Shown here piece after piece: positions 2,511-23,125 of a DNA stretch of 23,736 nt. Below the pieces are notes generated by a model. That model was not told the DNA's origin and made no database searches. It saw nothing but the letters and a program-made list of their open reading frames with translations. The first letter of the stretch is position 1. Every line of letters starts with the position of its first letter. Position numbers and translations under genes: made by a program. This stretch comes from a virus. The stretch is taken from positions 1 through 23,736 of the IMG/VR virus record IMGVR_UViG_3300009285_001876; one strand, given 5' to 3'.

Positions 2511-3476
2511 ATGCCTCAGCCTACTGCCGGTGATGTACATGTGGACGCCGTTTTGACAAACATTTCGGTGGCATTCATACAGGATCAGAAGATGTATGTT
2601 GCCACCAAGGTGTTCCCTGTCATTCCGGTGGACAAACAGTCCAACAAGTATTATTCATTTGACAAGAACGATTGGTTCCGTGACGAGGCCAAACCACGGG
2701 CTGATGCCACGGAGTCAGCTGGGTCAGGATACGGGCTTTCCACGGACACCTACTTCTGTGACCCGTATGCCATTCACAAGGACGTGGGTAATCAGGCCCG
2801 CAAGAACGCGGACCCGGGGGTTAACTTGGACGAAAGCGCCACCCGGTTTGTCACCGGGCGGATGCTTTTGCGCCAGGAAATCCAGTGGGTGACTGACTAT
2901 TTTGCCCTTGGGATCTGGGGAACGGACGTGGAGGGAGGAGCCGGGAACGACTTTACCCAGTGGAATGATTACGCGGACTCCGACCCCCTGGATGACTTCG
3001 AGGGTGGAAAGGAGCAGGTCCTCTCCACTACCGGTTATGAGGCCAACACCCTGGTGTTAGGTTATCAGGTGTGGCGTAAGCTGAAGCGCCACCCGGACTT
3101 GGTGGACTTGATCAAGTACACCGGGAGGGACTCTATCACCCCGGAGCTTTTGGCCAAGATCTTGGAGATTGACAATGTGTATGTGGCCAAGGCTGTAAAG
3201 GCCACCAACGCGGAAGGGGTCGCAGCGGCTTACGACTTCACACACGGCAAGAACGCCTTGTTGTGCTATGCTAACCCAAACCCTGGCCTCCTGGAACCGA
3301 GCGCCGGGTACATTTTCGCCTGGACCGCGTTGAGTGAGGGGCTGGGTGAGGCCATCGGAGTTTCCCAGTTCTACCTCAACAAGGAGAAGGCGGATCGGTT
3401 TGAAGCCGAGGCTGGTTGGGACAACAAGGTGGTGGCCTCTGATATGGGATACTTTTATTCGGGGGCCGTGGCCTAG
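2511..3476 (+). CDS. major capsid protein (HK97-fold)
   Basis: This 321-residue protein matches a recognisable family of phage major capsid proteins: 'DVHVDAVLTNISVAFIQDQK' at the N-terminus, 'KVFPVIPVDKQSNKYYSFDK' and 'DWFRDEAKPRADATESAG' (residues about 35-70), then 'NLDESATRFVTGRMLLRQEI'. The protein builds the icosahedral shell. It is well under the size of a capsid carrying its own delta domain, consistent with a separate upstream scaffold. AAGGAGG lies 7-8 bases before the ATG. It follows protease, scaffold and cement genes in canonical order. The absence of connector genes immediately downstream is unusual. Confidence 0.9.
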   Translation: MPQPTAGDVHVDAVLTNISVAFIQDQKMYVATKVFPVIPVDKQSNKYYSFDKNDWFRDEAKPRADATESAGSGYGLSTDTYFCDPYAIHKDVGNQARKNADPGVNLDESATRFVTGRMLLRQEIQWVTDYFALGIWGTDVEGGAGNDFTQWNDYADSDPLDDFEGGKEQVLSTTGYEANTLVLGYQVWRKLKRHPDLVDLIKYTGRDSITPELLAKILEIDNVYVAKAVKATNAEGVAAAYDFTHGKNALLCYANPNPGLLEPSAGYIFAWTALSEGLGEAIGVSQFYLNKEKADRFEAEAGWDNKVVASDMGYFYSGAVA

Positions 3477-3494
3477 TTTCCTTGGCTTTCACTC

Positions 3495-3525
3495 CCCTCC
3501 CCCTAAATTCGATCAGTGGGGAGGG
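3495..3525 (+). other. GC-rich hairpin between capsid gene and next gene
   Basis: CCCTCCCC at 3495-3502 is perfectly complementary to GGGGAGGG at 3518-3525, with a 15-base loop. No run of T follows, so it is not a standard intrinsic terminator. It could protect the capsid mRNA 3' end or tune the next gene: the left arm can also pair with the AGGGAGG ribosome-binding site at 3534-3540. The inverted repeat is seen; the role is inference. Confidence 0.4.
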
Positions 3526-3547
3526 CTCTGGATAGGGAGGGTTGTCT

Positions 3548-3895
3548 GTGGCTTCTGAGTTTTATGTGATACGGGCTTTTGATGGGAATCGGCGGTATGA
3601 GTCTGGGGAGGTGGTGGAGGCTTCCGGATTCCGGAACCTGCGTAAGCTGATTGATCAGCGGTACTTGAGGCCGGTTGACCCAATAGTCCACCTGCCCGAG
3701 GGCGGTAAGGAGCAGAATCGGGTTTTGAGGGACTTGGATGAAGATGATCTTTCCGGCAACGGATTGGACGATGAAGAGGATGCAGTGAGCGCAAGCGTTG
3801 CGGCGGCATCCAAGCTTCAACAGCAGAAGACATTGCCTCCCCGCTGCCGGGTGGCCCACAGGAAGCCGGTCTCAGCAAGGAGAATGGAGGAGTAA
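3548..3895 (+). CDS. hypothetical small head protein
   Basis: A 115-residue protein with 'FYVIRAFDGNRRYESGEVVE' and 'FRNLRKLIDQRYLRP' near the N-terminus. This compact fold is seen in small phage proteins beside capsid genes. The C-terminal half is acidic, then Ala/Lys/Arg-rich, and probably disordered. I chose GTG at 3548 because AGGGAGG (3534-3540) is 7 bases upstream; an in-frame TTG at 3542 is only 1 base from that motif. The stop TAA overlaps the next ATG (TAATG, 3893-3897). It may be a head-completion or decoration factor, but there is no decisive motif. Confidence 0.6.
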   Translation: MASEFYVIRAFDGNRRYESGEVVEASGFRNLRKLIDQRYLRPVDPIVHLPEGGKEQNRVLRDLDEDDLSGNGLDDEEDAVSASVAAASKLQQQKTLPPRCRVAHRKPVSARRMEE

Positions 3896-4119
3896 TGGCA
3901 GGTTTTTACAATCTGTTGACTAGACACTTTGCCAAATTGGGTGGGATAACCTTCCTGGACGGGGTGCACATATTCTCACACGCTGGGATTCCCACAAATG
4001 GGGCCTCTGGGACTATGGCGGGCAAAGCTGCTAAGGGTTCCTTGTGTATAGATTCATTAAACGCGGCTTTGTATCAGAACACAGGGACAAAAGCCTCCCC
4101 GACTTGGACAGAGAGATAA
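3895..4119 (+). CDS. small virion protein with a fibre-type 'KGSL..D..N..LYQNTGTKASPTW' motif
   Basis: A 74-residue protein whose C-terminal half reads KAAKGSLCIDSLNAALYQNT and then GTKASPTWTER. This 'GSLY-D--N--LY-NTGT-ASPTWT' pattern is common in phage head-fibre and tail-fibre proteins, where it makes short beta repeats. It starts on the stop of the previous gene and GGAGG sits just before the ATG, so it is probably co-translated. The likely role is a small capsid-surface or fibre-base component (inference). It is too short to fold as a full fibre alone and may act with the beta-helix protein encoded next. Confidence 0.6.
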   Translation: MAGFYNLLTRHFAKLGGITFLDGVHIFSHAGIPTNGASGTMAGKAAKGSLCIDSLNAALYQNTGTKASPTWTER

Positions 4120-4195
4120 GGGGGATTGACTCTTTCTTGCGCTGGAGGCTGAAGAGCCAGTAGCCAACAATGGCTAAAAAGGAGAAGAGCAAAAA

Positions 4196-5059
4196 ATGGG
4201 AAACAGGATTACAAAAGGTCAAGCGTACTTTGGGGCTCTGTGGGTTGGGGGGAATCGAGTCTACGGGGACGGCAGGCCCGTATGGAAAAACAGGCGGTAC
4301 GTTGACCCGGCAGCCGTAACAGGGTCTGGGAAGTCCTGGAAAACAGCTTACACCACAATTCAGGCCGCTGTGAATGCGGCTGTGGCCGGGGATCTGCTCT
4401 CCATTGCTCCTGGGGAGTACGATGAGGTGGTGACCCTGGCGGCTGCTGATGTGAAGATTGGAATGGAAGCAGTAGGTGGCCCAGGGTCTGTATATATCAA
4501 GCCCTCCGCAGCGGACTCCATTGCCTTGACAAACAACGGCAGCGATAACTACTTTATCAACATCGGCATGGAAGGCAACGGGACTGGAGGTGGGTTCCTG
4601 AACAGCGGACTCCGCTGCCGCACCTTTGGAGGAAAGTATGAGGGTGGGGCTTTTGGGGCCAAGATCCGACCGAATGACACTTTGAGTATCGATGCCTCTG
4701 ACCTGATTATGTTTGACCCGGAGTTCTGTTGGGCAGACTCCGGGCTGATCCTCACCGGGTCTGTGAGCCAAAACCTGACCCAGCCCAGAATCATTGGTGG
4801 GAGGTTCCACAACAACGCCGACGCTCACATCAGTGATGGGGTAGGGGCGGACGCCTGGGTGGTGGACGCTCACATCGACGAAGCCAGGTTCCTGCGGAAC
4901 GAGGACGGAGCAACGCCTACTGTGTTTGTGGACCTCAACAAGGCAAACGATAACGGGCAGTTGGTGTCTTGTCGGTATTCAGTGACGGCGGCGGGGCTGG
5001 CCGCTTTGCTTACCCTGGCTGCTGGAGTCCTGAACGTAGATGCGAGGACCGCAGCGTAA
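4196..5059 (+). CDS. right-handed beta-helix (pectate-lyase-like) protein in the head region
   Basis: This 287-residue protein contains 'TGSGKSWKTAYTTIQAAVNA' and 'AVAGDLLSIAPGEYDEVVTL' (residues about 41-82). This is the entry motif of right-handed beta-helix phage and bacterial proteins: G-G-sW-tA--tIq-Al-aA--GD-I-vapG-Y-E. Repeated short strands follow (VYIKPSAADSIALTNNGSDN, LRCRTFGGKYEGG). Such folds form trimeric spikes or bind and cleave glycans. No signal peptide is visible. Its position after the capsid gene suggests a capsid-attached fibre or decoration rather than the tail spike, which is encoded near the 3' end. The start ATG has GGAGAAG about 8 bases upstream. No catalytic residues can be assigned. 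Confidence 0.75.
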   Translation: MGNRITKGQAYFGALWVGGNRVYGDGRPVWKNRRYVDPAAVTGSGKSWKTAYTTIQAAVNAAVAGDLLSIAPGEYDEVVTLAAADVKIGMEAVGGPGSVYIKPSAADSIALTNNGSDNYFINIGMEGNGTGGGFLNSGLRCRTFGGKYEGGAFGAKIRPNDTLSIDASDLIMFDPEFCWADSGLILTGSVSQNLTQPRIIGGRFHNNADAHISDGVGADAWVVDAHIDEARFLRNEDGATPTVFVDLNKANDNGQLVSCRYSVTAAGLAALLTLAAGVLNVDARTAA

Positions 5060-5071
5060 GGAATAGGGCCT

Positions 5072-5347
5072 ATGTCCTGGGAGGAGGTTGGGTTTTGGAA
5101 AGCTATGCTGGGGTGGCTGGAAGATCCGGTGCGACGTTGGCACATGGTGACACGGATCTTAGAGACTGCCGCCCCGGCATGGCTAGCCTTGCACTTCTTT
5201 TGGAAGAGGCTCCCGACTTGGGTTGTGGTTGCGTTGATCCTCTTGGGGGAGTTTTTGTTATATGAGTTCCTTCTGGAGCCACGCATGGGGGCTGGGCCGT
5301 ACTGGGAACGGGGGCCACGGGACTTTGAAACATTTGTTGTGCCATAA
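5072..5347 (+). CDS. small predicted membrane protein
   Basis: A 91-residue protein with one strong hydrophobic segment at about residues 47-67 (TWVVVALILLGEFLLYEFLL) after a Trp/Arg-rich amphipathic region, and a soluble C-terminus (PRMGAGPYWERGPRDFETF). AAGGAA lies about 8 bases before the ATG. No family is recognised. It begins the accessory block of small membrane and exported proteins. It could be a membrane-active accessory or a lysis-related factor, but the sequence alone does not show this. Confidence 0.6.
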   Translation: MSWEEVGFWKAMLGWLEDPVRRWHMVTRILETAAPAWLALHFFWKRLPTWVVVALILLGEFLLYEFLLEPRMGAGPYWERGPRDFETFVVP

Positions 5348-5361
5348 GTAAGGGAGTGGCT

Positions 5362-5763
5362 ATGAAAAAGTTTCTGATCTTGCTAGTTGCTCTTCTGATT
5401 GGCTTTGGAGGTCCCTCTCTATCTTGGTCTCAATCTCCTGGGGTGGTTTGTAGCGGGATCTCAGCGCAGCTTGCCCCGTATGACTCAGAGAAGGTCACTG
5501 TGGCAGACTCCGCGATCGGGTTCACTTCGGCAAAGATCAGCCCGGCCACCGGCAACATAGCCGTCCTGGCCGTTGTGGTAACGGAGACCTCCTCAATCCG
5601 GTACTTGGATACGGGAGTGAATCCAACTGCTACAGATGGAGTCCCAGTGGACGCGGGTGGGGTGGTGCCGGTGTGTGGTCGTACAGCAGTAACCCAGTTC
5701 CGTATGATTCGCTCAGGGGCTGTCTCGGCCACGGCTCAAATCATCTACTACCGGGCTCGTTAG
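5362..5763 (+). CDS. exported small protein with signal peptide
   Basis: The product begins MKKFLILLVALLIGFGG, then PSLSWSQSPG: a typical Sec signal peptide with cleavage likely near residues 24-26. The mature part (about 107 residues) is Ala/Val/Ser/Thr-rich and beta-like, with two cysteines (VVCSG and PVCGR) that could form a disulphide in the periplasm. I chose ATG 5362, 7 bases after AAGGGAG; a GTG at 5356 would place the start inside that motif. The signal peptide resembles that of the gene at 6166, and the two may work together. No family is recognised. Secretion is unusual for a gene in a virion operon. Confidence 0.65.
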   Translation: MKKFLILLVALLIGFGGPSLSWSQSPGVVCSGISAQLAPYDSEKVTVADSAIGFTSAKISPATGNIAVLAVVVTETSSIRYLDTGVNPTATDGVPVDAGGVVPVCGRTAVTQFRMIRSGAVSATAQIIYYRAR

Positions 5764-5782
5764 TGATGGGAGGGAAGGGGAG

Positions 5783-6136
5783 ATGGCGGATAGTTTCGAG
5801 GAGTACCAAAAGCGCCTGTCTGAACTGAAAGAGATGTTCTCCAAAGAGAAGGTCCTGCCTGTTGAGTTTCTGCTGAACCCTGCCGGAGAAAGATGTAAAA
5901 TTATTGTGGATGGGGAAGACATCTCCCGGTTTGTCACTGGAATAAAGATTGAGGCCAGCATCGGGGAACTCACTAGGATGACTGTTGAGTTCGTCAACTT
6001 GGGCATTGTTGTATCTGGAACTGGCCTGGTGGCTTACGTTGAGAAAACTGCGGTTGGGTCTGAAGCCAGATCGCATATTCCGGTGTTTGTTGAATTGGAT
6101 GGGGAGAAGGTCTCCGGAAAAGGGTTAGGATCATGA
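5783..6136 (+). CDS. hypothetical protein with 'DGEDISRFVTGIKIEASIGE' domain
   Basis: A 117-residue protein. After an N-terminal helix (SFEEYQKRLSELKEMF) it has RCKIIVDGEDISRFVTGIKI, then EASIGELTRMTVEFVN. This beta-strand pattern ('v-i-vdGeDIs-v-g--i-a--g--t-v-lef') recurs in small phage and mobile-element proteins of unknown role. It has no signal peptide, unlike the genes on either side. A GGGAGGGAAGGGGAG stretch precedes the ATG. I do not know the function. Confidence 0.6.
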   Translation: MADSFEEYQKRLSELKEMFSKEKVLPVEFLLNPAGERCKIIVDGEDISRFVTGIKIEASIGELTRMTVEFVNLGIVVSGTGLVAYVEKTAVGSEARSHIPVFVELDGEKVSGKGLGS

Positions 6137-6165
6137 TAGTGCTGGTGGAATAGGAGAAAGGAAAA

Positions 6166-8094
6166 TTGAAAAAACTCCTTAGCCTTCTTGTTTGTTTGGG
6201 GTTGATTTTGTTTGGGGCTGGAACTGCCTCTTCTCAATCTATCCCGTACCCATCCCGGACCACGCTGCCTTTCCTGACTGTATCTGGCGCTATCTCAGGG
6301 GATAGTCTTTCCTTGACTACCCCATTGCCGGCGGATAGTGGCGGGACTGGTTTAGACTCTTCCGGCTCAACCGGTGTTCCGCAAATTGTGGCGGGGGCTT
6401 GGTCATTCCCTTCCGTGGTCTCTCCGGCGTATGGGGGCACAGGACTTTCTAGTTACGCAATTGGGGACCTGATCTATGCCGACGGAGCTTCCAGCCTGGC
6501 GAAGTTGGCCGGGGTGGATACCGGGAATGCTCTGCTTTCGGGGGGAGTTGGGACTGCTCCCGCTTGGGGTAAGATTGGGCTAACAACCCACGTTTCGGGA
6601 ACCTTGGCTGCCAGCAGTGGTGGAACGGGGCTTTCTTCTTACGCAGTAGGGGATTTGTTATACGCTGACGGAGCCGGTTCGCTCGCAAAGTTGGCTGCTG
6701 TGGCCTCCGGTTCTTATTTTTCCAGCGTGGGGGTGGGAGTGGCTCCTGCCTGGGCCACTTTGAATCAAGCGGCGGTTGCAGGTCTTACAACCACCAATAG
6801 CCCCACCTTTGCTGGCGCGAACCTCACTGGCCCTCTGGATATTGCGAGAACGAATCCTGCCGGGGCCATGATTACCCTGACGGATAATGGGGTGGCCGGA
6901 ACTCAGAAATCCATTGTTTTTCGGGATGGAGACACGGTTCGTGGTTCCATTGATAACATACAGGCCACGAATATTCTCCGGGTCTTTGCTGGAGAAGTCG
7001 AGGCTCTCCGGTTCCATGGGGATGGATCGTTACGTTTCCCACTGCACACTTCTGGAGTTTTAACTACTGACGCCGATGGGGACGTGATCGCAAATAATGT
7101 CCTCACGGCCAACCAGATCTTATACGGCGCGGCGGGGAATACGATTGCCAGTTCTGCAAATTTTACTTTTGATGGATCTCTGACTCTTGGGCTTGCGAGC
7201 GGGGGGATCATAGACTTTGCCTCTGGTGGTTTGACTCTGACCCATAGTGCTCCGGCTGGCGCGGACACCCTCACGCTGGCTGGAGGCGTATTTGTTCTCT
7301 CCGCAGGCACAGCGGCGGCAGCTAGCTTGCAGCTTGGAGCGAGCACGGTAGGGCTATTTGCCGCGAGCGCGAATGAGCTAGGTGTTGCCCTGGACGGTGC
7401 GCAGGTTTGGAACCTAGCTGCCGATGCGCTTTCACTTTTGAGTGACACTGGGAAGTACAGGCTGGGGGTGGGCTCGGACCTGATTTTAGGTCGTGAGGCT
7501 GCCGCCATTCTCCAAATGGGTATTGATGCTGCCGCACCCGTCGCGCAAACCCTCAAAGGCCCCGATGGCAGTGGAACGGACAAGGCTGGCGGGAATCTTA
7601 CGATTGGCGCGGGTCGGGGCACAGGCACAGGCCTTGGGGGTTCTTTCATTGTCGCCACGGCACCGGCAGGCGGCGTGAGCGGTACGGCGCAGAATGCGTT
7701 GGTGGATCGTGTGACCGTACTATCTACGGGTGTCGTCTGGTTTTCCCCCCAAGACAATGCCGCAACCCCAGTGGCGCCTACGGCTACCCTGAAGGCGTTT
7801 CTTTACAACAAATCCGTTGTGGATGACGGCATTATCACCCTCCCTGCCGTGACGACGATCGGTCGCGGAAGGGTCTTTGTAGAGGGCGGGGCGACCTACG
7901 CTGAGTTCTTCGTGAACGGAACGGGCACGGTCACGCTGTTAGGGGCTGCCGTGCTAACGACAGCGGACGTAGTAGCTAACGCGGACACAGACACAAAGTT
8001 GTGTATCGGCACGGCGGCGGCTCAAGAGCCACTACAGATCAAGAATCGCCTTGGGGCGGCTAAGGTGATCAACGTGGAGTTTTGGTATGACTGA
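6166..8094 (+). CDS. large exported protein with tail-fibre-type repeats
   Basis: A 642-residue protein starting at TTG 6166 after AGGAGAAAGG. Residues 1-25 (KKLLSLLVCLGLILFG, then AGTASSQS) are a clear signal peptide. Residues about 60-200 contain tail-fibre repeats of the form GGTGLSSYAVGDLLYADG...LAKLA...APAW. Further beta-rich segments include 'TLKGPDGSGTDKAGGNLTIG' at about residues 463-482, another motif common in fibre and appendage proteins. The C-terminus (ATLKAFLYNKSVVDDGIITL ... KVINVEFWYD) looks like a compact end domain. Phage fibres normally lack signal peptides, so it may be displayed or released by the infected cell, or the hydrophobic start may have another use. It lies between capsid and connector genes rather than at the tail end. 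Confidence 0.7.
   Translation: MKKLLSLLVCLGLILFGAGTASSQSIPYPSRTTLPFLTVSGAISGDSLSLTTPLPADSGGTGLDSSGSTGVPQIVAGAWSFPSVVSPAYGGTGLSSYAIGDLIYADGASSLAKLAGVDTGNALLSGGVGTAPAWGKIGLTTHVSGTLAASSGGTGLSSYAVGDLLYADGAGSLAKLAAVASGSYFSSVGVGVAPAWATLNQAAVAGLTTTNSPTFAGANLTGPLDIARTNPAGAMITLTDNGVAGTQKSIVFRDGDTVRGSIDNIQATNILRVFAGEVEALRFHGDGSLRFPLHTSGVLTTDADGDVIANNVLTANQILYGAAGNTIASSANFTFDGSLTLGLASGGIIDFASGGLTLTHSAPAGADTLTLAGGVFVLSAGTAAAASLQLGASTVGLFAASANELGVALDGAQVWNLAADALSLLSDTGKYRLGVGSDLILGREAAAILQMGIDAAAPVAQTLKGPDGSGTDKAGGNLTIGAGRGTGTGLGGSFIVATAPAGGVSGTAQNALVDRVTVLSTGVVWFSPQDNAATPVAPTATLKAFLYNKSVVDDGIITLPAVTTIGRGRVFVEGGATYAEFFVNGTGTVTLLGAAVLTTADVVANADTDTKLCIGTAAAQEPLQIKNRLGAAKVINVEFWYD
6433..6576 (+). repeat. fibre repeat unit 1
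   Basis: A 48-codon unit encoding GGTGLSSYAIGDLIYADG and ending VGTAPAWGKI. It aligns without gaps to the unit at 6619-6762, with a period of 186 bases. An additional partial start (DSGGTGLDSSGS) lies upstream at about 6337. Confidence 0.75.
6619..6762 (+). repeat. fibre repeat unit 2
   Basis: The second 48-codon unit, encoding GGTGLSSYAVGDLLYADG and ending VGVAPAWATL. Protein similarity to unit 1 is higher than DNA similarity, so this is an old duplication or one kept by selection on protein. Confidence 0.75.
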
Positions 8095-8185
8095 GAGATG
8101 GTTTTCCCGGCCCGCTGCGGGCTCTGGATTTCGGGGACGGCGAGGGAGCGTGGTGGACGTTGGTGAGTTGGTAGAGGAAAATTAG
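8087..8185 (+). CDS. candidate tiny basic protein (32 aa)
   Basis: ATG at 8087 overlaps the end of the fibre-repeat gene (its stop is 8092-8094) and has GGAG at 8076-8079, a 7-base spacer. The reading frame gives MTERWFSRPAAGSGFRGRRG and ends in an acidic VDVGELVEEN. Its TAG (8183-8185) overlaps the GTG of the next small ORF. Good ribosome-binding spacing and stop/start overlaps at both ends argue for translation. The short length and lack of any family keep confidence low. Confidence 0.35.
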   Translation: MTERWFSRPAAGSGFRGRRGSVVDVGELVEEN

Positions 8186-8352
8186 TGAAAGCCATAACTG
8201 CTTTTGTTCTAGGTTGGCTTTGGCTTCTTGTGAGGCGATGGGTTTTAGTTGCCCTGCTGTTTGTGGCATTAGCTTATGTATTGTTTGGATGCGTTTTGAC
8301 AATGTATAATGGAAAGTTGGAGAGCGGAAGCGTGTCCATGGTGCCGCGTTGA
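8185..8352 (+). CDS. candidate small membrane protein (55 aa)
   Basis: GTG at 8185 follows AGAGGA (8173-8178) with a 6-base spacer and overlaps the previous TAG. The product is mostly hydrophobic: AFVLGWLWLLV, two arginines, then WVLVALLFVALAYVLFGCVL (residues about 19-38), with a short polar C-terminus. This suggests one membrane helix or a helical hairpin. It overlaps the start of the J-domain gene by 44 bases in another frame. It could be a lysis-accessory or leader peptide; no family is recognised. It fills what would otherwise be a 214-base gap. Confidence 0.45.
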   Translation: MKAITAFVLGWLWLLVRRWVLVALLFVALAYVLFGCVLTMYNGKLESGSVSMVPR

Positions 8353-8824
8353 TGGGGAAGATCGAGGGTTGCGGTTTGAACAGGCTATTCAGATCCTGGA
8401 AATCGAAGGGGCTTATAAGGCCGCTCCTGATACCGGGTGGGAACAACGGCTGGAGTATTATCGGCGGGTCCTTATCCCAGCCGCCGTGGAGTCTCATCAC
8501 AAGAAAATCGCCCTTGTCCATCCCGATAAGAACCCTGCCGGGATTGAAGAGGCTAAGAAGCTTTCTCAGGCTATCAAGGCTGTCCGGGACCTTGCCCGTA
8601 GTCAGGAGGCAAGGTTCAAAGAGCGGGTTGCCGCCTTTCAGAAAAACGACGAACGAACAGATAGTAAACTGGATGCTCCCGGGGTCCGTGAGGCGATTGC
8701 CAAGATTGAGTACTATTTTGGTGAGATTCGCTGCCTCATGGATGCTTATAAGATCAGCGATGATTTGCTCTACTCAGCGCGGCGGAAGAGGGGGCGGCGC
8801 TGGAGGCATTTCCTCAAGCCGTAG
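8309..8824 (+). CDS. J-domain (DnaJ-like) co-chaperone protein
   Basis: This 171-residue protein contains SHHKKIALVHPDKNP at residues about 62-76, with the HPD tripeptide (71-73) that J-domains use to stimulate Hsp70 ATPase. It is preceded by a basic helix and followed by a helix (EEAKKLSQAIKAVRDLARSQ) equivalent to J-domain helices II and III. Helix I is less clear, and about 30 residues lie between it and helix II. The N-terminus has CPWC, a possible metal or redox motif. The C-terminal third is Lys/Arg-rich. It probably recruits host DnaK to fold virion or fibre proteins (inference). ATG 8309 lacks a strong ribosome-binding site and may depend on coupling to the overlapping ORF. The overlapping +1 frame is also long, but only this frame has the HPD motif. 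Confidence 0.7.
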   Translation: MESWRAEACPWCRVDGEDRGLRFEQAIQILEIEGAYKAAPDTGWEQRLEYYRRVLIPAAVESHHKKIALVHPDKNPAGIEEAKKLSQAIKAVRDLARSQEARFKERVAAFQKNDERTDSKLDAPGVREAIAKIEYYFGEIRCLMDAYKISDDLLYSARRKRGRRWRHFLKP

Positions 8825-8841
8825 GTTGGAGGTGGGATGGA

Positions 8842-9150
8842 TTGCAGGAGCCTACTCGGTACGATGAATTTATTGGCATCCCGGACATGGCCAGGAATTG
8901 GATACACCTGGACAGAGGTCCAGGAATTCGACTTTTGCACAGGCACGGGGACCAACGGAGCATCCGGCTCCGGATCGTGGAGATCGAAGGGGTCTTGCAA
9001 GGGGAGGGCGGCGTTGAAGAAGGGCCAGGGGGTTTCCTGTGTGCGGTCTTCCCACCGGCCCGCTGGGCAAATGGAGCCGTAAAGGTTCTTAGATGGGTGT
9101 GGTTCATTGTTCAAGCGACATGGATCATTTGGAAGGAGAGAAGAAAATGA
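8842..9150 (+). CDS. hypothetical protein with C-terminal membrane-like helix
   Basis: A 102-residue protein reading QEPTRYDEFIGIPDMARNWI, a Gly-rich middle, then a hydrophobic Trp-rich end (VLRWVWFIVQATWIIWKERR). TTG 8842 lies 9 bases after GGAGG (8828-8832). An ATG at 8837 opens a different, less protein-like frame. The stop overlaps the next ATG (ATGA, 9147-9150), which favours this frame, since the following gene is clearly real. A membrane-anchored accessory of the lysis genes is possible. No family is recognised. Confidence 0.55.
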   Translation: MQEPTRYDEFIGIPDMARNWIHLDRGPGIRLLHRHGDQRSIRLRIVEIEGVLQGEGGVEEGPGGFLCAVFPPARWANGAVKVLRWVWFIVQATWIIWKERRK

Positions 9151-9530
9151 AATTGAGTAAGATCTTTGGGATTTTCATGGTATTGGTTTGGGTGGCGATC
9201 ATGGGGGTGCTTCTTGCTTGGACCGTTTTCGCTGCGGAGGCCCCTGTGGTCACAGTTCCGCCGGGTGGAGTGGTGATTTCCCCGACGCTGATTTCCATGC
9301 TGATGGCGGTAATTGTCCCTATGCTGTTGGCCTTTGGCAAAGCCAAGCTGGGCCTGGAGCAAATGAGCCGCCTATTACCCGTGTTGGCTGCAGTGCTAGC
9401 AATCGTGATCGACATGCTACAGAGCTTGCTAACTAATGTGAGTCTTGGCCCACAGACTGCCGGCATGGTGGGCTTGGCGGGTGTTGGGCTCCGGGAGGTT
9501 GTGGATCAGATTAAGAAGCTTGGAGCTTGA
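9147..9530 (+). CDS. holin-like small membrane protein
   Basis: From ATG 9147 (after GGAAGGAGAG) the product is 127 residues with hydrophobic stretches at about 6-29 (a TM or signal-like segment ending VFAAEA), 46-64 (PTLISMLMAVIVPMLLAF) and 76-95 (LLPVLAAVLAIVIDMLQSLL), and a basic C-terminus (VDQIKKLGA). Size, two to three membrane segments and position directly before an i-spanin/o-spanin pair fit a phage holin, which opens the inner membrane to start lysis. An earlier in-frame GTG start at 9093 was rejected because it lacks a ribosome-binding site and lies inside the previous gene. Holins have no universal motif, so the call rests on topology and context. Confidence 0.65.
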   Translation: MKLSKIFGIFMVLVWVAIMGVLLAWTVFAAEAPVVTVPPGGVVISPTLISMLMAVIVPMLLAFGKAKLGLEQMSRLLPVLAAVLAIVIDMLQSLLTNVSLGPQTAGMVGLAGVGLREVVDQIKKLGA

Positions 9531-9533
9531 AGC

Positions 9534-9854
9534 GTGGAGGCTTTGGGTGGGATGACGGCCTGGGTAGTTTTGGGGATAGTCCTCCTGGTGGTGGCCGTCA
9601 TAGCCTTTTCCTCCTGGCTGTCTATAAAGTGGGGGGAGATGAGGGGGATCAAAAATGAAGCTGAGAAACTCCGGCTGTCAGACCAGCAAAAATCCCACTT
9701 GGTGGAGGAGCTTCGTGAGATCAATCGAAAAAGTCGGGAGGAGCGGGATAGTGGTCGTGGTCCTTTCGATGCTTCTCCTGGTCGGGTGCGCCAGTTTGGG
9801 GGCAAGCTCAACCAAGTGGCCGGTCCCGACGATCCCCAGCCGCCCAAGCCTTGA
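9534..9854 (+). CDS. i-spanin (Rz-like inner-membrane lysis subunit)
   Basis: A 106-residue protein with one N-terminal membrane helix (residues about 9-29, AWVVLGIVLLVVAVIAFSSW) and a charged coiled coil behind it (KNEAEKLRLSDQQKSHLVEE, then LREINRKSREERD). This is the topology of Rz i-spanins, which span the periplasm with an o-spanin and fuse inner and outer membranes in the last step of lysis. The decisive evidence is the out-of-frame lipoprotein gene overlapping its 3' half (9715-10011). GTG 9534 follows TTGGAGC; ATG 9552 is an alternative. The Pro-rich C-terminus is shaped by the overlap. Confidence 0.8.
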   Translation: MEALGGMTAWVVLGIVLLVVAVIAFSSWLSIKWGEMRGIKNEAEKLRLSDQQKSHLVEELREINRKSREERDSGRGPFDASPGRVRQFGGKLNQVAGPDDPQPPKP

Positions 9855-10011
9855 ATATGGCTTTGTGGAGGTGAATCCAATTTCTGGGGGGACGATTTGG
9901 TTGATGAGCCTAGAGGACAAGCGGAAGGTCGATAGATACATTTTCGACCTAGAGGAGTCCTTGCGGGAGGCCGAAGCTACGATCCGGGCCGTGAATGGTG
10001 AGTTGAAATGA
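9715..10011 (+). CDS. o-spanin (Rz1-like outer-membrane lipoprotein), overlapping the i-spanin
   Basis: GTG 9715 is preceded by GGTGGAGGAG (9701-9710), a strong ribosome-binding site inside the i-spanin gene. The 98-residue product begins MRSIEKVGRSG, then a hydrophobic core (IVVVVLSMLLLVGCAS) with lipobox LVGC; Cys25 would be lipidated. The mature part has a Pro/Ser-rich start (WPVPTIPSRPS) and a C-terminal helix (SLEDKRKVDRYIFDLEESLR). It overlaps the i-spanin by 140 bases in another frame and extends beyond it, as in overlapped Rz/Rz1 pairs. This implies a host with an outer membrane. An upstream in-frame ATG at 9655 would bury the signal peptide and is unlikely. Confidence 0.85.
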   Translation: MRSIEKVGRSGIVVVVLSMLLLVGCASLGASSTKWPVPTIPSRPSLEYGFVEVNPISGGTIWLMSLEDKRKVDRYIFDLEESLREAEATIRAVNGELK

Positions 10012-10367
10012 GAGAGCATTGGTCTACTAAACCCGTTAACTGGGCAATGAGTGGTGTCTTTCTGCTGGTTCTCCTGTGGATCTTGTCCGGGGTGGTTTTC
10101 GCTGGAGAGCCAACTGGGGCTGTAAAGATTAAACTCCGGGAGTTTGGTCCGACGGCTTGTCCAGTCCAGAAACCAAAGGTTGTGAAGCTGGAGGACGGCA
10201 CCCACAGTAGAACTTCTCCCCTCTACCTAATTACCATCGCCTGCCTTTCCGGCGCTAAGTGGCAGGAAGAGTGGACAAATTACCCGGAGAAAGGGGGGAC
10301 GTTCATTCGGGAAGTCCCTGGTACTCGGCAGCGTTATTCGCCATATGAGGAAGGGGGGACAAAGTGA
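10008..10367 (+). CDS. small exported protein with possible disulphide
   Basis: A 119-residue protein. Residues about 13-32 (AMSGVFLLVLLWILSGVVFA) form a signal peptide or membrane anchor with a good cleavage site before GEP. The mature part has two cysteines (TACPVQ and IACLSG) that could pair in the periplasm, and is rich in Lys, Pro and Tyr. It overlaps the o-spanin stop (ATGA, 10008-10011), so it is translated with the lysis genes. It may help lysis or block superinfection; neither is shown. No family is recognised. Confidence 0.6.
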   Translation: MREHWSTKPVNWAMSGVFLLVLLWILSGVVFAGEPTGAVKIKLREFGPTACPVQKPKVVKLEDGTHSRTSPLYLITIACLSGAKWQEEWTNYPEKGGTFIREVPGTRQRYSPYEEGGTK

Positions 10368-10705
10368 AACCAAGCCACGTGGGCTTCTTTGTTAGCTTAG
10401 TTGTAGGACTTCTGCTGCTGATTTCTACAACATTGTCTTTTGGGGGGGAAGCCAAAAAAGAACCCCTGAAGGAACCTCCAGCCCTGGTCGAGGTGGACGT
10501 TCTCAAGATGAAGCTGGCTAGGGCGGAGTTAAACGCTCTTCAGGAGCGGATTGGTCGTCTTCTGGCGGAAGCTGGTTTGACTCAAGCTGTGAAAGAGAAG
10601 GAAACGGCATTGAACAAAATTGTAGAGGACGCAGCGAAGGCCCAAGGAGTGGACCTGAAGCTGTACCTTCCGGACCCAGACAAGAAAGCCTGGGTAAAGC
10701 GATGA
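10364..10705 (+). CDS. small exported or membrane-anchored coiled-coil protein
   Basis: A 113-residue protein starting at GTG 10364 after GGAAGGGGGG and overlapping the previous stop (GTGA). Residues about 7-27 (GFFVSLVVGLLLLISTTLSF) form a signal peptide or anchor. The rest is a Glu/Lys/Ala/Leu-rich helix (ALVEVDVLKMKLARAELNAL, QERIGRLLAEAG) ending in a Pro/Asp/Lys tail (LYLPDPDKKAWVKR). A periplasmic helical rod with an anchor resembles spanin-type proteins, but a spanin pair already lies just upstream. A lysis accessory is possible; the family is unknown. Confidence 0.6.
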   Translation: MKPSHVGFFVSLVVGLLLLISTTLSFGGEAKKEPLKEPPALVEVDVLKMKLARAELNALQERIGRLLAEAGLTQAVKEKETALNKIVEDAAKAQGVDLKLYLPDPDKKAWVKR

Positions 10706-11079
10706 TCGTGGAAATCGTTGCAGCAGCAGAGAGCGTAGCAAGGTCCGTAGGGCCGGTTTACCAGGAGGTGGGGTTTCCTTGGTCTGGGGTGTTTCAAGGG
10801 GTATTGGTTGCTTTGCTTGGGTGGCTGATCATGGAGACGTACCGGACCCGCTCTAAGTCATTGGATAAGGTTACGGAAGTTCACTGGGCTATCAGTGCGG
10901 AGATCCAGGAACTCCGGGGGCGGCTGAACGACGGGCTTTCCGCCTTGAGCCGGGAGGTGGCTCAAGTGATGAAGTGGATCGAGGGCCATGAGAAATTGGA
11001 TGATGAGCGGCACAGGTCAACTTTGGATAGCTTGGAACGCTTGCGGAAGGCTGGGGAAGGAGGGGACCAAATTGTTTAG
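10702..11079 (+). CDS. small membrane protein with C-terminal coiled coil
   Basis: A 125-residue protein whose ATG overlaps the previous stop (ATGA, 10702-10705). It has one membrane segment at about residues 28-46 (SGVFQGVLVALLGWLIMETY), then a long charged helix to the C-terminus (AISAEIQELRGRLNDGLSAL, AQVMKWIEGHEKLDDERHRS). The arrangement is similar to phage proteins that assist holins at the inner membrane (hemolysin/XhlA-like), but I see no specific motif. It is the last gene of the exported/membrane block; the next gene starts inside its final codons. Confidence 0.6.
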   Translation: MIVEIVAAAESVARSVGPVYQEVGFPWSGVFQGVLVALLGWLIMETYRTRSKSLDKVTEVHWAISAEIQELRGRLNDGLSALSREVAQVMKWIEGHEKLDDERHRSTLDSLERLRKAGEGGDQIV

Positions 11080-11323
11080 CTTGGAAGCTCATGAGGGGAC
11101 ACCGCTTTACACAAATAACCAGGTGAACAAGGCTATTGTTGTTTCTCACATCCATATTACCCAAGTGGAAGAACGGGAGGATAGAGGACCGAATTTGTTT
11201 TTCCGTTCCGTCGGGTCCAACGGACAGGTTGTTGAGGCGCTGGCTAGGTTTTTCTTGGAGTATCCTGGGCTTTACGAGGCTGTTGGGGGAATGAAAGCTC
11301 TCCTGGGGAATTTGAAGAAGTGA
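11072..11323 (+). CDS. hypothetical small soluble protein
   Basis: An 83-residue protein. TTG 11072 is preceded by GGAAGGAGGGG (11055-11065) with a 6-base spacer; longer versions starting inside the previous gene have no ribosome-binding site. It reads EAHEGTPLYTNNQVNKAIVV, then HIHITQVEE, and ends in a helix (EALARFFLEYPGLYEAVGGM). It has no membrane segment. It is wedged between the membrane-protein block and the adaptor gene, overlapping both by a few bases. No family is recognised. Confidence 0.55.
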   Translation: MFSLEAHEGTPLYTNNQVNKAIVVSHIHITQVEEREDRGPNLFFRSVGSNGQVVEALARFFLEYPGLYEAVGGMKALLGNLKK

Positions 11324-11754
11324 CTTGGACTTATAGCTCTGTTGATTTGACTACCTCGTTGAACAAAGTCCGGCTCACGATTGGTGACACGGATAGTGGA
11401 GACCCTCTGCTTACAAACGAGGAGATTCAGTTCCGGATTGACAATGAGGCCACAATCTGGTCAGCGGCTGCCTCCTGCGCGGACGACATTGCTGCCAAGT
11501 TTTCACGTCAGGTGGACAAGAGCGTGGGGGATCTACGGCTCTCGGCTTCCCAAAAGGTTACTCAGTATAGGGACTTGGCTATGAGCATACGGTCCAGGAA
11601 GGGCTTGCTTCACGCCTTGCCGTTCGCTGGTGGAATCTCTGTGACCGGGAAGGAGACCCACGAGGAGGATGAGGATCTGGTGCAGCCGGACATCCGGCGT
11701 GGCATCCACGACAACCCTGACATAACGGATTCGGACGATAACGACGATGATTAG
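11320..11754 (+). CDS. head-tail connector / adaptor protein
   Basis: A 144-residue protein starting MTWTYSSVDLTTSLNKVRLT and IGDTDSGDPLLTNEEIQFRI, then a helical block (WSAAASCADDIAAKFSRQVD, KSVGDLRLSASQKVTQYRDL). This is the recognisable pattern of small phage adaptor proteins that dock on the portal ring after DNA packaging. The acidic tail (RRGIHDNPDITDSDDNDDD) is also typical. GTG 11320 overlaps the previous stop (GTGA). It opens the neck gene cluster: adaptor, head-closure, gp10-like, terminator. Connectors usually sit directly after the capsid gene; here about 7.8 kb intervenes. Confidence 0.8.
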   Translation: MTWTYSSVDLTTSLNKVRLTIGDTDSGDPLLTNEEIQFRIDNEATIWSAAASCADDIAAKFSRQVDKSVGDLRLSASQKVTQYRDLAMSIRSRKGLLHALPFAGGISVTGKETHEEDEDLVQPDIRRGIHDNPDITDSDDNDDD

Positions 11755-12108: not shown

Positions 12109-12567
12109 GTGGCTAAAGATTCTGATATAGAGATGAAGATAATCAACCTAGACAAGGTGACCCGGCTTCTTCAAAAGATCGGTGAGAAGGTAAGAGATCA
12201 TATTGGGACGGCTTTGTACCGGGAAGCGGAAAGGATTATGACAGCCTCTAAAAAGCAAGTCCCCGTGGACACTGGGGCTTTGCGTAGCACAGGCCATATA
12301 CGGGAGCCAGAGGTCAGCGGAAATATGGTCTCTGTTGTGCTAGGGTATGGAGGCCCAGCTGGGGCCGGGTTGAAACCTAGAAAGGGCAAGAGATCCAAAA
12401 GGGTAATTGACAATGTGGGCTACGCTGTGTACGTCCACGAGAACCTCAATGCTAAGCACCACGTTGGGGGTGCTAAGTTTTTGGAAAAGCCTATGCTAGA
12501 AGCCCAAAAAGGTATGGACGATCGGTTGGCTAGGGAGATTGCAGCCATAATCCGGGAGACGGCTTAA
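12109..12567 (+). CDS. HK97 gp10-like neck / tail-completion protein
   Basis: A 152-residue protein with AERIMTASKKQVPVDTGALR (the 'P-VDTGALR-S' hallmark of HK97 gp10-like proteins) and the second conserved block VGYAVYVHENLNAKHHVGGA, KFLEKPMLEA. It works at the head-tail joint or tail end. The start is ambiguous: TAGGAGC (12093-12099) is 4 bases from TTG 12103 and 10 from GTG 12109. I prefer GTG. It sits between stopper and terminator as in other siphophages. Confidence 0.85.
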   Translation: MAKDSDIEMKIINLDKVTRLLQKIGEKVRDHIGTALYREAERIMTASKKQVPVDTGALRSTGHIREPEVSGNMVSVVLGYGGPAGAGLKPRKGKRSKRVIDNVGYAVYVHENLNAKHHVGGAKFLEKPMLEAQKGMDDRLAREIAAIIRETA

Positions 12568-12569
12568 AA

Positions 12570-12968
12570 ATGGTGAGTGAGGAGATTACAGCCTACCTGG
12601 AGGCTCAGGGGATAGGGACTAGGGGCATGAATTTGTTTTCGGATGTCACTCCGGAGCAGCCAGATAACTTGGTCTCTGTTAATCTTTACACCGGTTCACC
12701 CCACATTCATACATTGGGTGGGGGGGCTGGTTCAGCTGCGTTAGAAAGGCCCCGTCTCCAAGTGAGTGCCCGTAACACTGACCACGACAATGGTTGGGAT
12801 AAGGCAAATGATGCCCTCTTATTGTTAGATGGGCTGAATAATACCACCTTAAGTGGGGTCAGCTACCTTTCCATTTTCGCGCTACAACCTGTGTTCCTGA
12901 TTGACCGGGATCAAAACAACCGTTGGGTTTTTGGATTCAATATCGAAGTTGTTAAGGAACTGTCCTGA
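12570..12968 (+). CDS. tail terminator (minor capsid / gpU-like) protein
   Basis: A 132-residue protein (ITAYLEAQGIGTRGMNLFSD, PEQPDNLVSVNLYTGSPHIH, LERPRLQVSARNTDHDNGWD) that follows the alpha-beta pattern of phage tail terminators: a short N-terminal helix, a 'PD--v-v--y-G', then 'RP-lqv-vR' and a C-terminal strand (QNNRWVFGFNIEVVKEL). This ring caps the tail tube and joins it to the neck. It lies directly before the tail-tube genes. It begins 2 bases after the gp10-like gene, whose end supplies GGGAG. Confidence 0.8.
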   Translation: MVSEEITAYLEAQGIGTRGMNLFSDVTPEQPDNLVSVNLYTGSPHIHTLGGGAGSAALERPRLQVSARNTDHDNGWDKANDALLLLDGLNNTTLSGVSYLSIFALQPVFLIDRDQNNRWVFGFNIEVVKELS

Positions 12969-12994
12969 TGCCCACGAGAAGGAGGAAGAGAAAG

Positions 12995-13210
12995 ATGAAG
13001 TTCCGTTGCTTGAGAGGGATGAACTACCCAGACCCGCAGCACCCTGGAAGAGAGAAGCGGGTGGAGCCCGGAGATATTGTAGAAGATGTCCCGGAGGAGT
13101 CTGTGGAGTGGTACAAGAAAAAGGGCTGCATCGTGGAGGTGGCGGAAGATCCTCCTGTCGCTGAAGGAAAGTCCGCAAAGAAGAAGTTCAAGACAGAAGG
13201 AGGGGGGTGA
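12995..13210 (+). CDS. small hypothetical neck/tail protein
   Basis: A 71-residue protein: MKFRCLRGMNYPDPQHPGRE, then RVEPGDIVEDVPEESVEWYK and a Lys-rich tail. The 'v-PGDiVeDvPe-sv-wy--kGcIvev' pattern is found in small proteins of many phage neck and head clusters. I chose ATG 12995 because AAGGAGG (12979-12985) is 9 bases upstream. An in-frame ATG at 12968 overlaps the terminator stop (TGATG), but its extra residues (PTRRRKRK) are those encoded by the ribosome-binding site. The function is unknown. Confidence 0.6.
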   Translation: MKFRCLRGMNYPDPQHPGREKRVEPGDIVEDVPEESVEWYKKKGCIVEVAEDPPVAEGKSAKKKFKTEGGG

Positions 13211-13216
13211 TTAAGG

Positions 13217-13936
13217 ATGGCTTTTCTTTCTGGAAAATCAGCAAAGGCTCTGGTCAACGAGTTTGACCTGAGTGCCTATTTTAACTCCTGTGATATTGGG
13301 GTTGATGTTGCTGCTTTGGAGACGACGGCCTTTGGAAAAACTAGCCGGAACTATCTGGCTGGTTTGAAAAATGGAACAGTTTCCTTGGCCGGGTATTGGG
13401 ACGGAGCGGCCAGCGCCGTTGACGTTGTTTTGGCGGCGTCATTGGGGGCTTCGGCTGGAAGGGTGGTTACATTTGGCTCCGATGGGCTGACCGTAGGGAA
13501 ACGGGTGAAGCTAGTCTCTGGTAAGACTACTTCCTATCGGGTTTCTACCCCTGTGGACGGTGTGGTAGCAGTGTCAGCTGATTTGCAAGCTGATAATGGT
13601 GTGGACCATGGACATTCTCACCACGCTCTGGCTTCTGAGGGGGCAACTGGGAGCTCTGCTTCAGTGGACGGGCTGGCGGGCTCGACCAACGGGGGGGTGG
13701 CAAATCTCCATGTCACGGTGAACACAAGATCTGCAAACTCCACCTTTAAAATTCAGGATTCGGCGAATGACATAGCCTGGGCTGACTTAATCACCTTCGC
13801 TGTAGTAGCCACTACAGTGGTGACCTCAGAGCAAGCCACCGTGGCAGGGGACGTGGATCGGTACACACGTGGGGATTGGACCTACGCGGCAGGGACCGGA
13901 GCGGACACGTTTGCTTTGGCCTTTGCCAGGCGGTAA
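13217..13936 (+). CDS. major tail-tube protein with extra C-terminal domain
   Basis: A 239-residue protein. Residues 1-130 match the tail-tube family, with signature VAALETTAFGKTSRNYLAGL, NGTVSLAGYWDG and TTSYRVSTPVDGVVAVSADL. The protein forms stacked rings around the tape measure. After a His-rich linker (DHGHSHH, about residues 131-137) comes a domain of about 100 residues (VANLHVTVNTRSANSTFKIQ, DSANDIAWADLITF) that may stick out on the tail surface. The next gene is a shorter paralogue without this domain. A strong AAGGAGG stretch lies upstream. Confidence 0.8.
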   Translation: MAFLSGKSAKALVNEFDLSAYFNSCDIGVDVAALETTAFGKTSRNYLAGLKNGTVSLAGYWDGAASAVDVVLAASLGASAGRVVTFGSDGLTVGKRVKLVSGKTTSYRVSTPVDGVVAVSADLQADNGVDHGHSHHALASEGATGSSASVDGLAGSTNGGVANLHVTVNTRSANSTFKIQDSANDIAWADLITFAVVATTVVTSEQATVAGDVDRYTRGDWTYAAGTGADTFALAFARR

Positions 13937-13962
13937 AAAGAGAGAAGGAGGGATAAAAAGAA

Positions 13963-14385
13963 ATGGCGTTTGCAGCAGGGAAAGCAGGAGTTTTCAAGAT
14001 CGATGATGCAGCAGCTGGGCTGACGGACCTCAGCCCGTACCTCGACAATGTGGATTTCCCACGGGAGGTGGCTGCCCTGGAGACGACGGCCTTTGGAAAG
14101 ACGAGCCGCAACTACATTGTCGGTCTGATCAACGGCACGATCAGCATTTCCGGCAAGTGGGACGGTGGGGTTGACCCGGCCCCAGATGTTACCCTGAGCG
14201 GGGTGCTGGGTCAGGCCGCCACATTGTCGTTTGAGTACGGGCCGGAGGGCTCCACGGGTGGGATGATTAAGTATTCCGGGGAGTGCATTTTGACAAGTTA
14301 CCGGATTTCCACCCCGGTGGATGGGGTGGTGAGCTTCTCGGCAGATTTCCAGATCACGGACAATGTGACTCGGGGAACCTGGTAA
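13963..14385 (+). CDS. second tail-tube protein (paralogue, no C-terminal domain)
   Basis: A 140-residue protein containing EVAALETTAFGKTSRNYIVG, NGTISISGKWDGG and LTSYRISTPVDGVVSFSADF, nearly the same signature as the upstream protein. DNA 14080-14115 matches 13319-13354 at 32 of 36 bases. It lacks the His linker and added C-terminal domain. AGAAGGAGG precedes the ATG. It may be the core tube subunit, with the longer protein mixed in as a decorated subunit, or one of the two may form a special ring. The mix is not decidable from sequence. Confidence 0.8.
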   Translation: MAFAAGKAGVFKIDDAAAGLTDLSPYLDNVDFPREVAALETTAFGKTSRNYIVGLINGTISISGKWDGGVDPAPDVTLSGVLGQAATLSFEYGPEGSTGGMIKYSGECILTSYRISTPVDGVVSFSADFQITDNVTRGTW

Positions 14386-21620: not shown

Positions 21621-22061
21621 ATGGCTGACCAAAGAATTATTTACACCGAGGAAATGGTGGGGGCTACACACCCCACCAAGAGTGACACCTTAAACCGCCT
21701 AGCCGTGGTAGAGCACAGTAATGATGGAACCCACAACCCAACAGCTTCCCTTTCGGCAGACTTAGGGCCAGGGGGAACAGCCGCTAGAGCCGCTGGAGTC
21801 ACTTATCAAAACACTAGTGCGAAGGTCCGTCGGGTAGAGGTGCTCATTGTCGGGACGTTGACAGGGAAGCTTTCGGCCACATTGAAAGTTGAAAACGCTA
21901 ATCCCCCTACTATAGTCCGTTGTAGTGCTATTATTGATGTGAATGCCGCCGTTGACAAACACGTTACTGCGTTGATTGGTTGGGTGCCTGTAAACTGGAG
22001 GTACTTAGTCACTTTGGTAACCGGGGCCGTGGACTCCTGGTTTGAGTACGACGAAATCTAG
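21621..22061 (+). CDS. small virion-associated tail fibre / appendage protein
   Basis: A 146-residue protein starting ADQRIIYTEEMVGATHPTKS and DTLNRLAVVEHSNDGTHNPT, a pattern repeatedly found at the start of phage tail appendage proteins ('VGa-HPTK-DTLNRL---eHn-DGTH'). The rest (residues about 45-146) forms a beta-rich domain (KVRRVEVLIVGTLTGKLSAT ... VNWRYLVTLVTGAVDSWFEY) that resembles a small jelly-roll-like fibre tip. AGGAGGT is 8 bases before the ATG. It sits between hub and spike genes, so is probably a small fibre or the spike connector. Confidence 0.65.
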   Translation: MADQRIIYTEEMVGATHPTKSDTLNRLAVVEHSNDGTHNPTASLSADLGPGGTAARAAGVTYQNTSAKVRRVEVLIVGTLTGKLSATLKVENANPPTIVRCSAIIDVNAAVDKHVTALIGWVPVNWRYLVTLVTGAVDSWFEYDEI

Positions 22062-22069
22062 GAGATAGG

Positions 22070-23125
22070 ATGCGTTTCGCCGGGCAGGCAATCTTCAATC
22101 TAGCCGAGGTCGGTGGAATCTCCATCGACCTTTGGGAGCAGGTGGCGAAGGCCGGAGGAGGTACTATCCTTGTGCCTGCCGGTCAGTGGCCAGTCCAGGG
22201 AACGGTCTGGACCGATTTTATTAACCGAGCTTCCCAGGTAGCTCTCGTTGGGGTGGGGTCAGCCAGTCAAATTATAGTAGCCGAAGGCGGGATTGAGTTT
22301 GATAACCTTCATCACGTTTCGATTGAGAACCTGGTTTTTGATGGGAGGCAAGTCTCTTATGGGAATGTACAGCTTACCTTTTCCCATGTCTATCAAGCCA
22401 ATATGCGAAATGTAGGCTTTTATGGCTGTAGAACTACTGGAGAATACAGTTCAGTAATTCGCTCCACGGTCACGGACCTATCATTAGAGTCGGTGCAATT
22501 CCGGGCTTGTGCTGGAGAGCGGAGTGTGCTTCAGAGTGGAGTGAATGGCGCAGCTTCCTGGTTGGGGTTATCCCTCCGACAAGTTGAGTTCATTGACTAC
22601 GGAGTGTTGAACGGCAACTTTTATACTGTTTATCCATTTGATGGGGCTTGGGTCCGAGTGGAGCAATGTGGAGAACAAAATGACGCTTATAGCCAGAGCA
22701 TAGTCAGTTTAGATGGGGTACGGATGGATGAAATGGCCAAGTATGGGCTGATGGTTGTCCCGGACCCTGCCACCTCAGCGGCGGTTGAAAATGTCCACGT
22801 CCGGGGGCTGCTCTGCAACGTGGGGCAAATCCCTGGGTCCGCTGGAGTCTATGTCCGCTACGTGAAAAACCTGGATGTGGAGAGATCCAGTTTTGCTTAT
22901 GGGGATTGGGAACTAACCCAATCGGATGCGATTAATGCCGGGGACGCCGAGAGGCCCGTAGACCACGTTAGCATCAAGAAGACCCGTTGTGTTGGCCGGG
23001 GGCAGAGAATTACAATTCATGATTCGACCAAGAGCCTGGAACTGGAGGACACTCTATATACCGAGTTAGTCTCCAACCCACTGACCACTCAGCATAAGAT
23101 CACGAAGGATGGGGTTCAATTGTGA
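22070..23125 (+). CDS. beta-helix tail spike-like protein (pectate-lyase fold)
   Basis: A 351-residue protein. It begins AGQAIFNLAEVGGISIDLWE, then AKAGGGTILVPAGQWPVQGT, the typical entry into a phage tail-spike beta-helix ('G-i-vPaG-y-v'). Repeated strands follow (FDNLHHVSIENLVFDGRQVS, YQANMRNVGFYGCRTTGEYS, VENVHVRGLLCNVGQIPGSA, KNLDVERSSFAYGDW), with the periodic 'v-v-n--f--c' of right-handed beta-helices. Likely role: recognition or cleavage of a surface polysaccharide at the tail tip. Acidic residues that could be catalytic (DGRQ, MDEM) are present but cannot be assigned. The short start lacks an obvious particle-binding domain; the preceding small protein might supply it. Confidence 0.75.
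   Translation: MRFAGQAIFNLAEVGGISIDLWEQVAKAGGGTILVPAGQWPVQGTVWTDFINRASQVALVGVGSASQIIVAEGGIEFDNLHHVSIENLVFDGRQVSYGNVQLTFSHVYQANMRNVGFYGCRTTGEYSSVIRSTVTDLSLESVQFRACAGERSVLQSGVNGAASWLGLSLRQVEFIDYGVLNGNFYTVYPFDGAWVRVEQCGEQNDAYSQSIVSLDGVRMDEMAKYGLMVVPDPATSAAVENVHVRGLLCNVGQIPGSAGVYVRYVKNLDVERSSFAYGDWELTQSDAINAGDAERPVDHVSIKKTRCVGRGQRITIHDSTKSLELEDTLYTELVSNPLTTQHKITKDGVQL

Follow-up and report, generated by a model that had tools for sequence, protein, structure and literature searches.

A fibre-like protein with a Sec signal peptide encoded between the capsid and connector genes of a siphophage

Here we show that a 23.7-kb virus record (hereafter the window, meaning the whole stretch of DNA analyzed), which contains the genes for the major capsid protein, connectors, major tail protein and tape measure protein of a siphophage in that order, encodes a fibre-like protein that starts with a Sec signal peptide (Table 1). 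The initial annotation had described such a protein, and its frame (exactly 6166-8094), its length of 642 residues, its fibre repeats and its N-terminal Sec signal were all recovered. The interpretation given there is partly supported. Its central claim, that this fibre bears a genuine export signal, can now be made more strongly than at first, because similar cases recur in other phages. Export of the protein is well supported by its sequence. As to its function and fate, we infer that it is a late, Sec-exported and probably non-virion fibre that would remain in the periplasm until spanin-dependent lysis and would then be released; we assign this reading a probability of about 0.5.

Table 1. 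Features of the window that bear on the fibre-like gene, with the evidence for each.
Feature	Position	Strand	Evidence or remark
Major capsid protein, left boundary of the slot	2511..3476	+	phrog_1005, E 4e-93
Slot between major capsid protein gene and head-tail connector gene	3477..11319	+	7.8 kb, against a median of 0.39 kb in 97 relatives
Small signal-peptide protein, 133 aa, two Cys after the signal	5362..5763	+	rule and Cys count; listed ORF starts at GTG 5356
117-aa protein between the two predicted exported genes	5783..6136	+	no family, no signal
AGGAG ribosome-binding site	6152..6156	+	9 bases 5' of the TTG start; sequence read directly
Predicted exported fibre-like protein, 642 aa, TTG start	6166..8094	+	open frame and family evidence
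Sec signal peptide, residues 1-23	6166..6234	+	custom rule and hydropathy
Two fibre repeats, residues ~80-200	6403..6765	+	77 viral loci, most sharing this stretch
C-terminal half, residues 343-642	7192..8091	+	common to signal-bearing L241; last part on signal-less tail fibres
Outer-membrane spanin, lipobox LLVGC	9655..10011	+	Rz-like spanin phrog_812, E 2.2e-4; nested with Rz-like gene 9534-9854
Signal-peptide protein, no assigned role	10008..10367	+	looser version of the rule
Signal-peptide protein, no assigned role	10364..10705	+	looser version of the rule
First connector gene, right boundary of the slot	11320..11754	+	phrog_1732, E 3e-19; 40 syntenic relatives

The signal sequence of the fibre, MKKLLSLLVCLGLILFGAGTASSQ, has an n-region with two lysines (KK), followed within residues 1-23 by an uncharged hydrophobic core and by small residues at the cleavage region. 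Candidate cleavage positions lie between GTA and SS (before S22) and between ASS and Q (before Q24). Considered as a substrate of Sec and signal peptidase I, with MKKLLSLLVCLGLILFGAGTASS followed by Q, the protein has the n/h/c architecture and the small residues at -3 and -1, and obtains a rule score of 5.69. The core is also the hydropathy peak of the whole protein, with an 11-residue Kyte-Doolittle mean of 2.98 versus a maximum of 2.02 elsewhere. The N-terminus contains no lipobox, the sole nearby cysteine being C10 with V at -1, and a single cysteine follows the signal. Our strict signal rule was custom-written for this analysis and is not a trained predictor, but its error rates were measured: it called none of 371 capsid and connector proteins and none of 75 repeat-sharing fibres, it passed 0.9% of shuffles of the window fibre, and it has one known miss, the protein L241:6836, which has a neutral n-region. 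By this rule, the signal peptide prediction that had been proposed as a check turned out positive. Since neither the core virion proteins nor the repeat-sharing relatives carry such a signal, we regard it as the result of a domain swap and not as a family trait.

The composition of the rest of the protein points in the same direction. A whole-protein scan of viral contigs yielded 77 relatives, mostly matching over residues ~80-200, where two copies of the repeat consensus GGTGLSSYAxGDLxYADGAxSLAKLAxV are found. These repeat-sharing relatives have N-termini of other kinds, none of which passes as a signal, and the virion-attachment region that they carry there is absent from the window fibre, whose repeats start soon after the signal. 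In searches of 395 and 297 genomes, chromosomal relatives of the repeat were rare and had no recognisable signal where the N-terminus was read. The C-terminal 102 residues matched three loci in the viral contig scan. Over residues 343-642 the window fibre is 55% identical to L241:7419-8294, which lies within the gene for a 350-aa signal-bearing protein whose N-terminus is MKRLSAFLIAACLLLPGTAAFA, followed by QTKIYP (cleavage between AFA and QTKIYP). L241 is a podophage (portal PF12236, E 5e-77; capsid protein), and its head and tail genes are unrelated to those of the window. The same last 100 residues are present, at 60-61% identity, on signal-less fibres encoded after tail genes in L242 and L243, and a wider scan revealed more signal-less carriers of this domain (L258-L264). 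The tail fibres of L242, L243 and L258-L264 resemble the window fibre in their last ~100 residues (47-64% identity), some of them also over a longer stretch (32-35% identity), and most end in an FWYD-type motif; unlike it, they are signal-less, have an N-terminal region of their own and are encoded beside tail genes. The occurrence of the last ~100-230 residues on signal-less fibres beside tail genes argues for an exchange of the N-terminus in both the window phage and L241. As judged from sequence comparison, the tip of the window fibre is a tail-fibre domain that is joined to a signal peptide in these two phages.

It had been anticipated that homologues with a non-hydrophobic N-terminus would refute export. 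Such homologues do exist among the repeat-sharing relatives, but they do not constitute a refutation, as their N-terminal part is a different one; furthermore, for the C-terminal half, the one close relative at the matching genome position (L241) bears a signal peptide. Together, these results favour a domain swap over an artefact. The collections searched contain nothing closely related to the protein over its full length, no relatives were found on plasmids, a PDB search with the fibre gave no chain with a credible match, and a Pfam search gave no match up to E 1, hence no Peptidase_S74 (PF13884). AlphaFold models of the small signal-peptide protein 5362-5763 and of the fibre had a pLDDT of 35 and were set aside from fold searches.

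The position of the gene is also unusual. With its fibre repeats and tail-fibre tip domain the protein looks like a virion tail fibre, but its gene does not follow the tape measure and tail genes, as expected for a tail-fibre gene; it is located between the capsid and connector genes. Among the 97 relatives having both genes, the median capsid-to-connector distance is 394 bases, versus 7.8 kb in the window. Seven relatives with a slot of 5-7 kb have signal-less fibre-like and small beta-rich proteins there, and Arthrobacter phage Ottawa has a 767-aa signal-less fibre-like protein in its capsid-connector slot. Signal-bearing proteins occur at this position as well. The near-identical L094, L095 and L125 have two signal-bearing proteins in the slot, one of 164 aa and a fibre-like one of 1372 aa, and L122 has a signal-bearing fibre-like protein of 357 aa. 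In L211, a phage-like region in a Deltaproteobacteria genome bin, a signal-bearing 282-aa fibre-like protein follows the capsid gene, slot assignment there meaning position after the capsid gene, as the connector gene was not recognised by our search. L241 has four signal-type genes between its capsid and tail-tube genes, and in the complete circular phage genome MW202444.1, which also encodes an integrase, a signal-bearing 1253-aa fibre (UOF76952.1) follows the tail genes. Signal-bearing fibre-like proteins were thus found in about six lineages, each consisting of one contig or one near-identical set. The signal call for L107:5787 was rejected as spurious, since it passes the rule only via an upstream TTG start, and a scan with the L241 major capsid protein gave no second podophage with the module.

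Some neighbors of these genes deserve mention. In L211, a signal-bearing M14 zinc carboxypeptidase (12559-14016, E 1.3e-17) adjoins the signal-bearing fibre-like gene. In L241, a gene between signal-peptide genes (5826-6839) encodes a membrane protein that matches O-antigen ligase (Wzy_C) below threshold (E 1.8e-4), and a phage-made surface modification is possible. Two genes past the signal-bearing fibre of MW202444.1 there is a nuclease-like gene (annotated SNc; L253 40535-41167) with a hydrophobic N-terminus.

The fibre gene is accompanied by a gene for a small protein (5362-5763) that also passes the strict rule. Its counterparts are L125:11895 and L241:6836. The small gene lies 5' of the fibre gene in all three phages, immediately before it in L125 and L241 and separated from it by one other gene in the window. 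The small protein is a likely partner of the exported fibre. The small proteins of the window, L125 and L241, plus two in L127, have exactly two cysteines after the signal, a pattern that would suit an oxidising periplasm. The two in L127 (12208-12804 and 13790-14296) are similar to each other and follow the capsid gene, with no fibre gene. The small proteins of the window and L241 are weakly similar (28%, E 0.005, one comparison), so that common descent cannot be claimed, and no relatives of the listed frame from 5356 were found in viral contigs.

The lysis cassette is located in the same block as the fibre gene. From the Rz1-like spanin lipoprotein encoded there, the host of the window phage appears to be diderm. 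Promoter and terminator scans of the slot gave no excess over chance, and its GC content is uniform; we therefore read the block as part of a late operon. For the same reasons, a moron origin of the block is unsupported. At the normal tail end, the window also has two genes with weak matches to tail families, a short fibre-like one (21621-22061) and a signal-less tail-spike-like one (22070-23125). Given the separate tail-spike-like gene, receptor binding by the phage itself need not depend on the signal-bearing fibre, which is probably not its only adhesin. At the end of the tail module, 23122-23613 encodes a protein with an L,D-transpeptidase (YkuD) domain (E 2.3e-5), possibly an endolysin. 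The 171-aa product of 8309-8824 contains an HPD motif and matches a DnaJ domain weakly, below the cut-off (E 0.056).

Based on this, we propose that the usual virion-attachment N-terminus of the fibre was replaced by a cleavable Sec signal, and that the gene would be expressed together with the capsid and lysis genes. The fibre would be exported via Sec, probably alongside the small exported protein, and its signal would be removed in the periplasm. Since the host is apparently diderm, we would expect the fibre to be retained in the periplasm or at the outer membrane and to be freed by spanin-dependent lysis. Its tip is of the kind used on tail fibres, so that it most likely binds a receptor or an envelope glycan of the dying cell, its debris or neighbouring cells. 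Occupation of the receptor would reduce the loss of progeny or superinfection, which T5 Llp does by another route. More broadly, and only tentatively, several unrelated tailed phages may have an exported appendage module among their capsid/connector genes, made up of a small disulphide-type signal-peptide protein and a signal-peptide fibre, built repeatedly by exchange of the attachment end for a Sec signal, and acting beyond the cytoplasm, either as a receptor decoy that is released or as a virion appendage added after lysis.

The fibres of tailed phages are assembled in the cytoplasm, and the non-virion reading has to face the fact that the slot of relatives also holds signal-less fibre-like proteins, which would fit a virion part. 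The single cysteine after the signal of the window fibre weighs against this reading as well. It is conceivable, if unlikely, that the exported fibre docks on the capsid or neck of released virions after lysis, as an appendage added outside the cell. The gene lies among capsid and connector genes, in the very slot where relatives keep signal-less fibre-like genes, and the paired small signal-peptide protein could be the docking part; because of this slot, attachment to virions after lysis retains some probability. However, the fibre lacks the N-terminal attachment region that is typical of its signal-less relatives, and no tailed-phage precedent was found in the papers searched. If the N-terminal segment were no export signal but just the hydrophobic end of a normal virion fibre, this would agree with the cytoplasmic assembly of virion fibres and with the lack of signals in the repeat-sharing relatives, but the independent recurrence of the full n/h/c architecture, and the neighbouring signal-peptide gene with its paired cysteines, make this very improbable.

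Two further readings keep the export signal and assign it another use. The fibre might be an adhesin that the infected cell or lysogen secretes or displays on its surface, encoded by a conversion gene and comparable to chromosomal secreted proteins with a tail-fibre domain. Many Acidobacteria chromosomal proteins combine a signal peptide with the tail-fibre S74 domain, and MW202444.1 has both an integrase and a signal-bearing fibre. We consider this rather improbable for the window, since no promoter specific to the fibre gene stands out above chance and its composition is like that of its surroundings, suggesting late expression, and the Pfam search detected no outer-membrane anchor or autotransporter domain in the protein. 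Alternatively, the fibre could serve lysis, for example through attachment to peptidoglycan or to the outer membrane alongside the spanins, which with further signal-peptide genes are encoded in the same block. The odds are long, as no spanins were identified beside the fibre in L125, L122 and MW202444.1, and the repeats and C-terminal domain are of the tail-fibre type.

Regarding the preferred reading, that of a fibre released from the periplasm at lysis, there is a functional precedent. Llp of phage T5 blocks the receptor, thereby excluding superinfection and presumably reducing inactivation on debris (PMC4728585). As we propose for the window fibre, Llp of T5/BF23 is made by the phage and delivered to the infected cell's envelope, and it has been proposed to spare progeny from receptor on debris; however, it is a small early lipoprotein with a lipobox, whereas the window fibre is a 642-aa late fibre without one (PMC4728585). 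Signal peptides on phage proteins of unassigned function have been noted before in Porphyromonas gingivalis phages (PMC10367356). Like the window fibre, these proteins have Sec signals and no assigned function, and several obey the host's Q rule at cleavage; unlike it, they do not appear to be described as fibres, the term 'tail fiber' being absent from that text (PMC10367356). In one survey, the targets of phage DGRs had no signal peptides (PMC6199706). In the open-access literature, to which our search was confined, we found no published description of exported tail or head fibres. If fibres are indeed routed through Sec, phages would also release free adhesins or add parts to their particles outside the cell, and either outcome would alter current views of receptor loss to debris, superinfection and fibre evolution.

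Signal peptides followed by fibre-like proteins are also found in Acidobacteria, where secreted S74 (PF13884) proteins are common, indicating that secreted fibre-like proteins exist in bacteria. Those proteins differ from the window fibre in being chromosomal and in having the S74 chaperone domain, which it lacks, and we read them as a precedent for it and not as its source. The Q rule has been published as specific to Bacteroidetes (PMC5837995). The Acidobacteria S74 proteins (L222, L227, L228, L236 and others) often have a Gln just after the likely cleavage site, and several of the phage module proteins likewise have a Gln directly after theirs.
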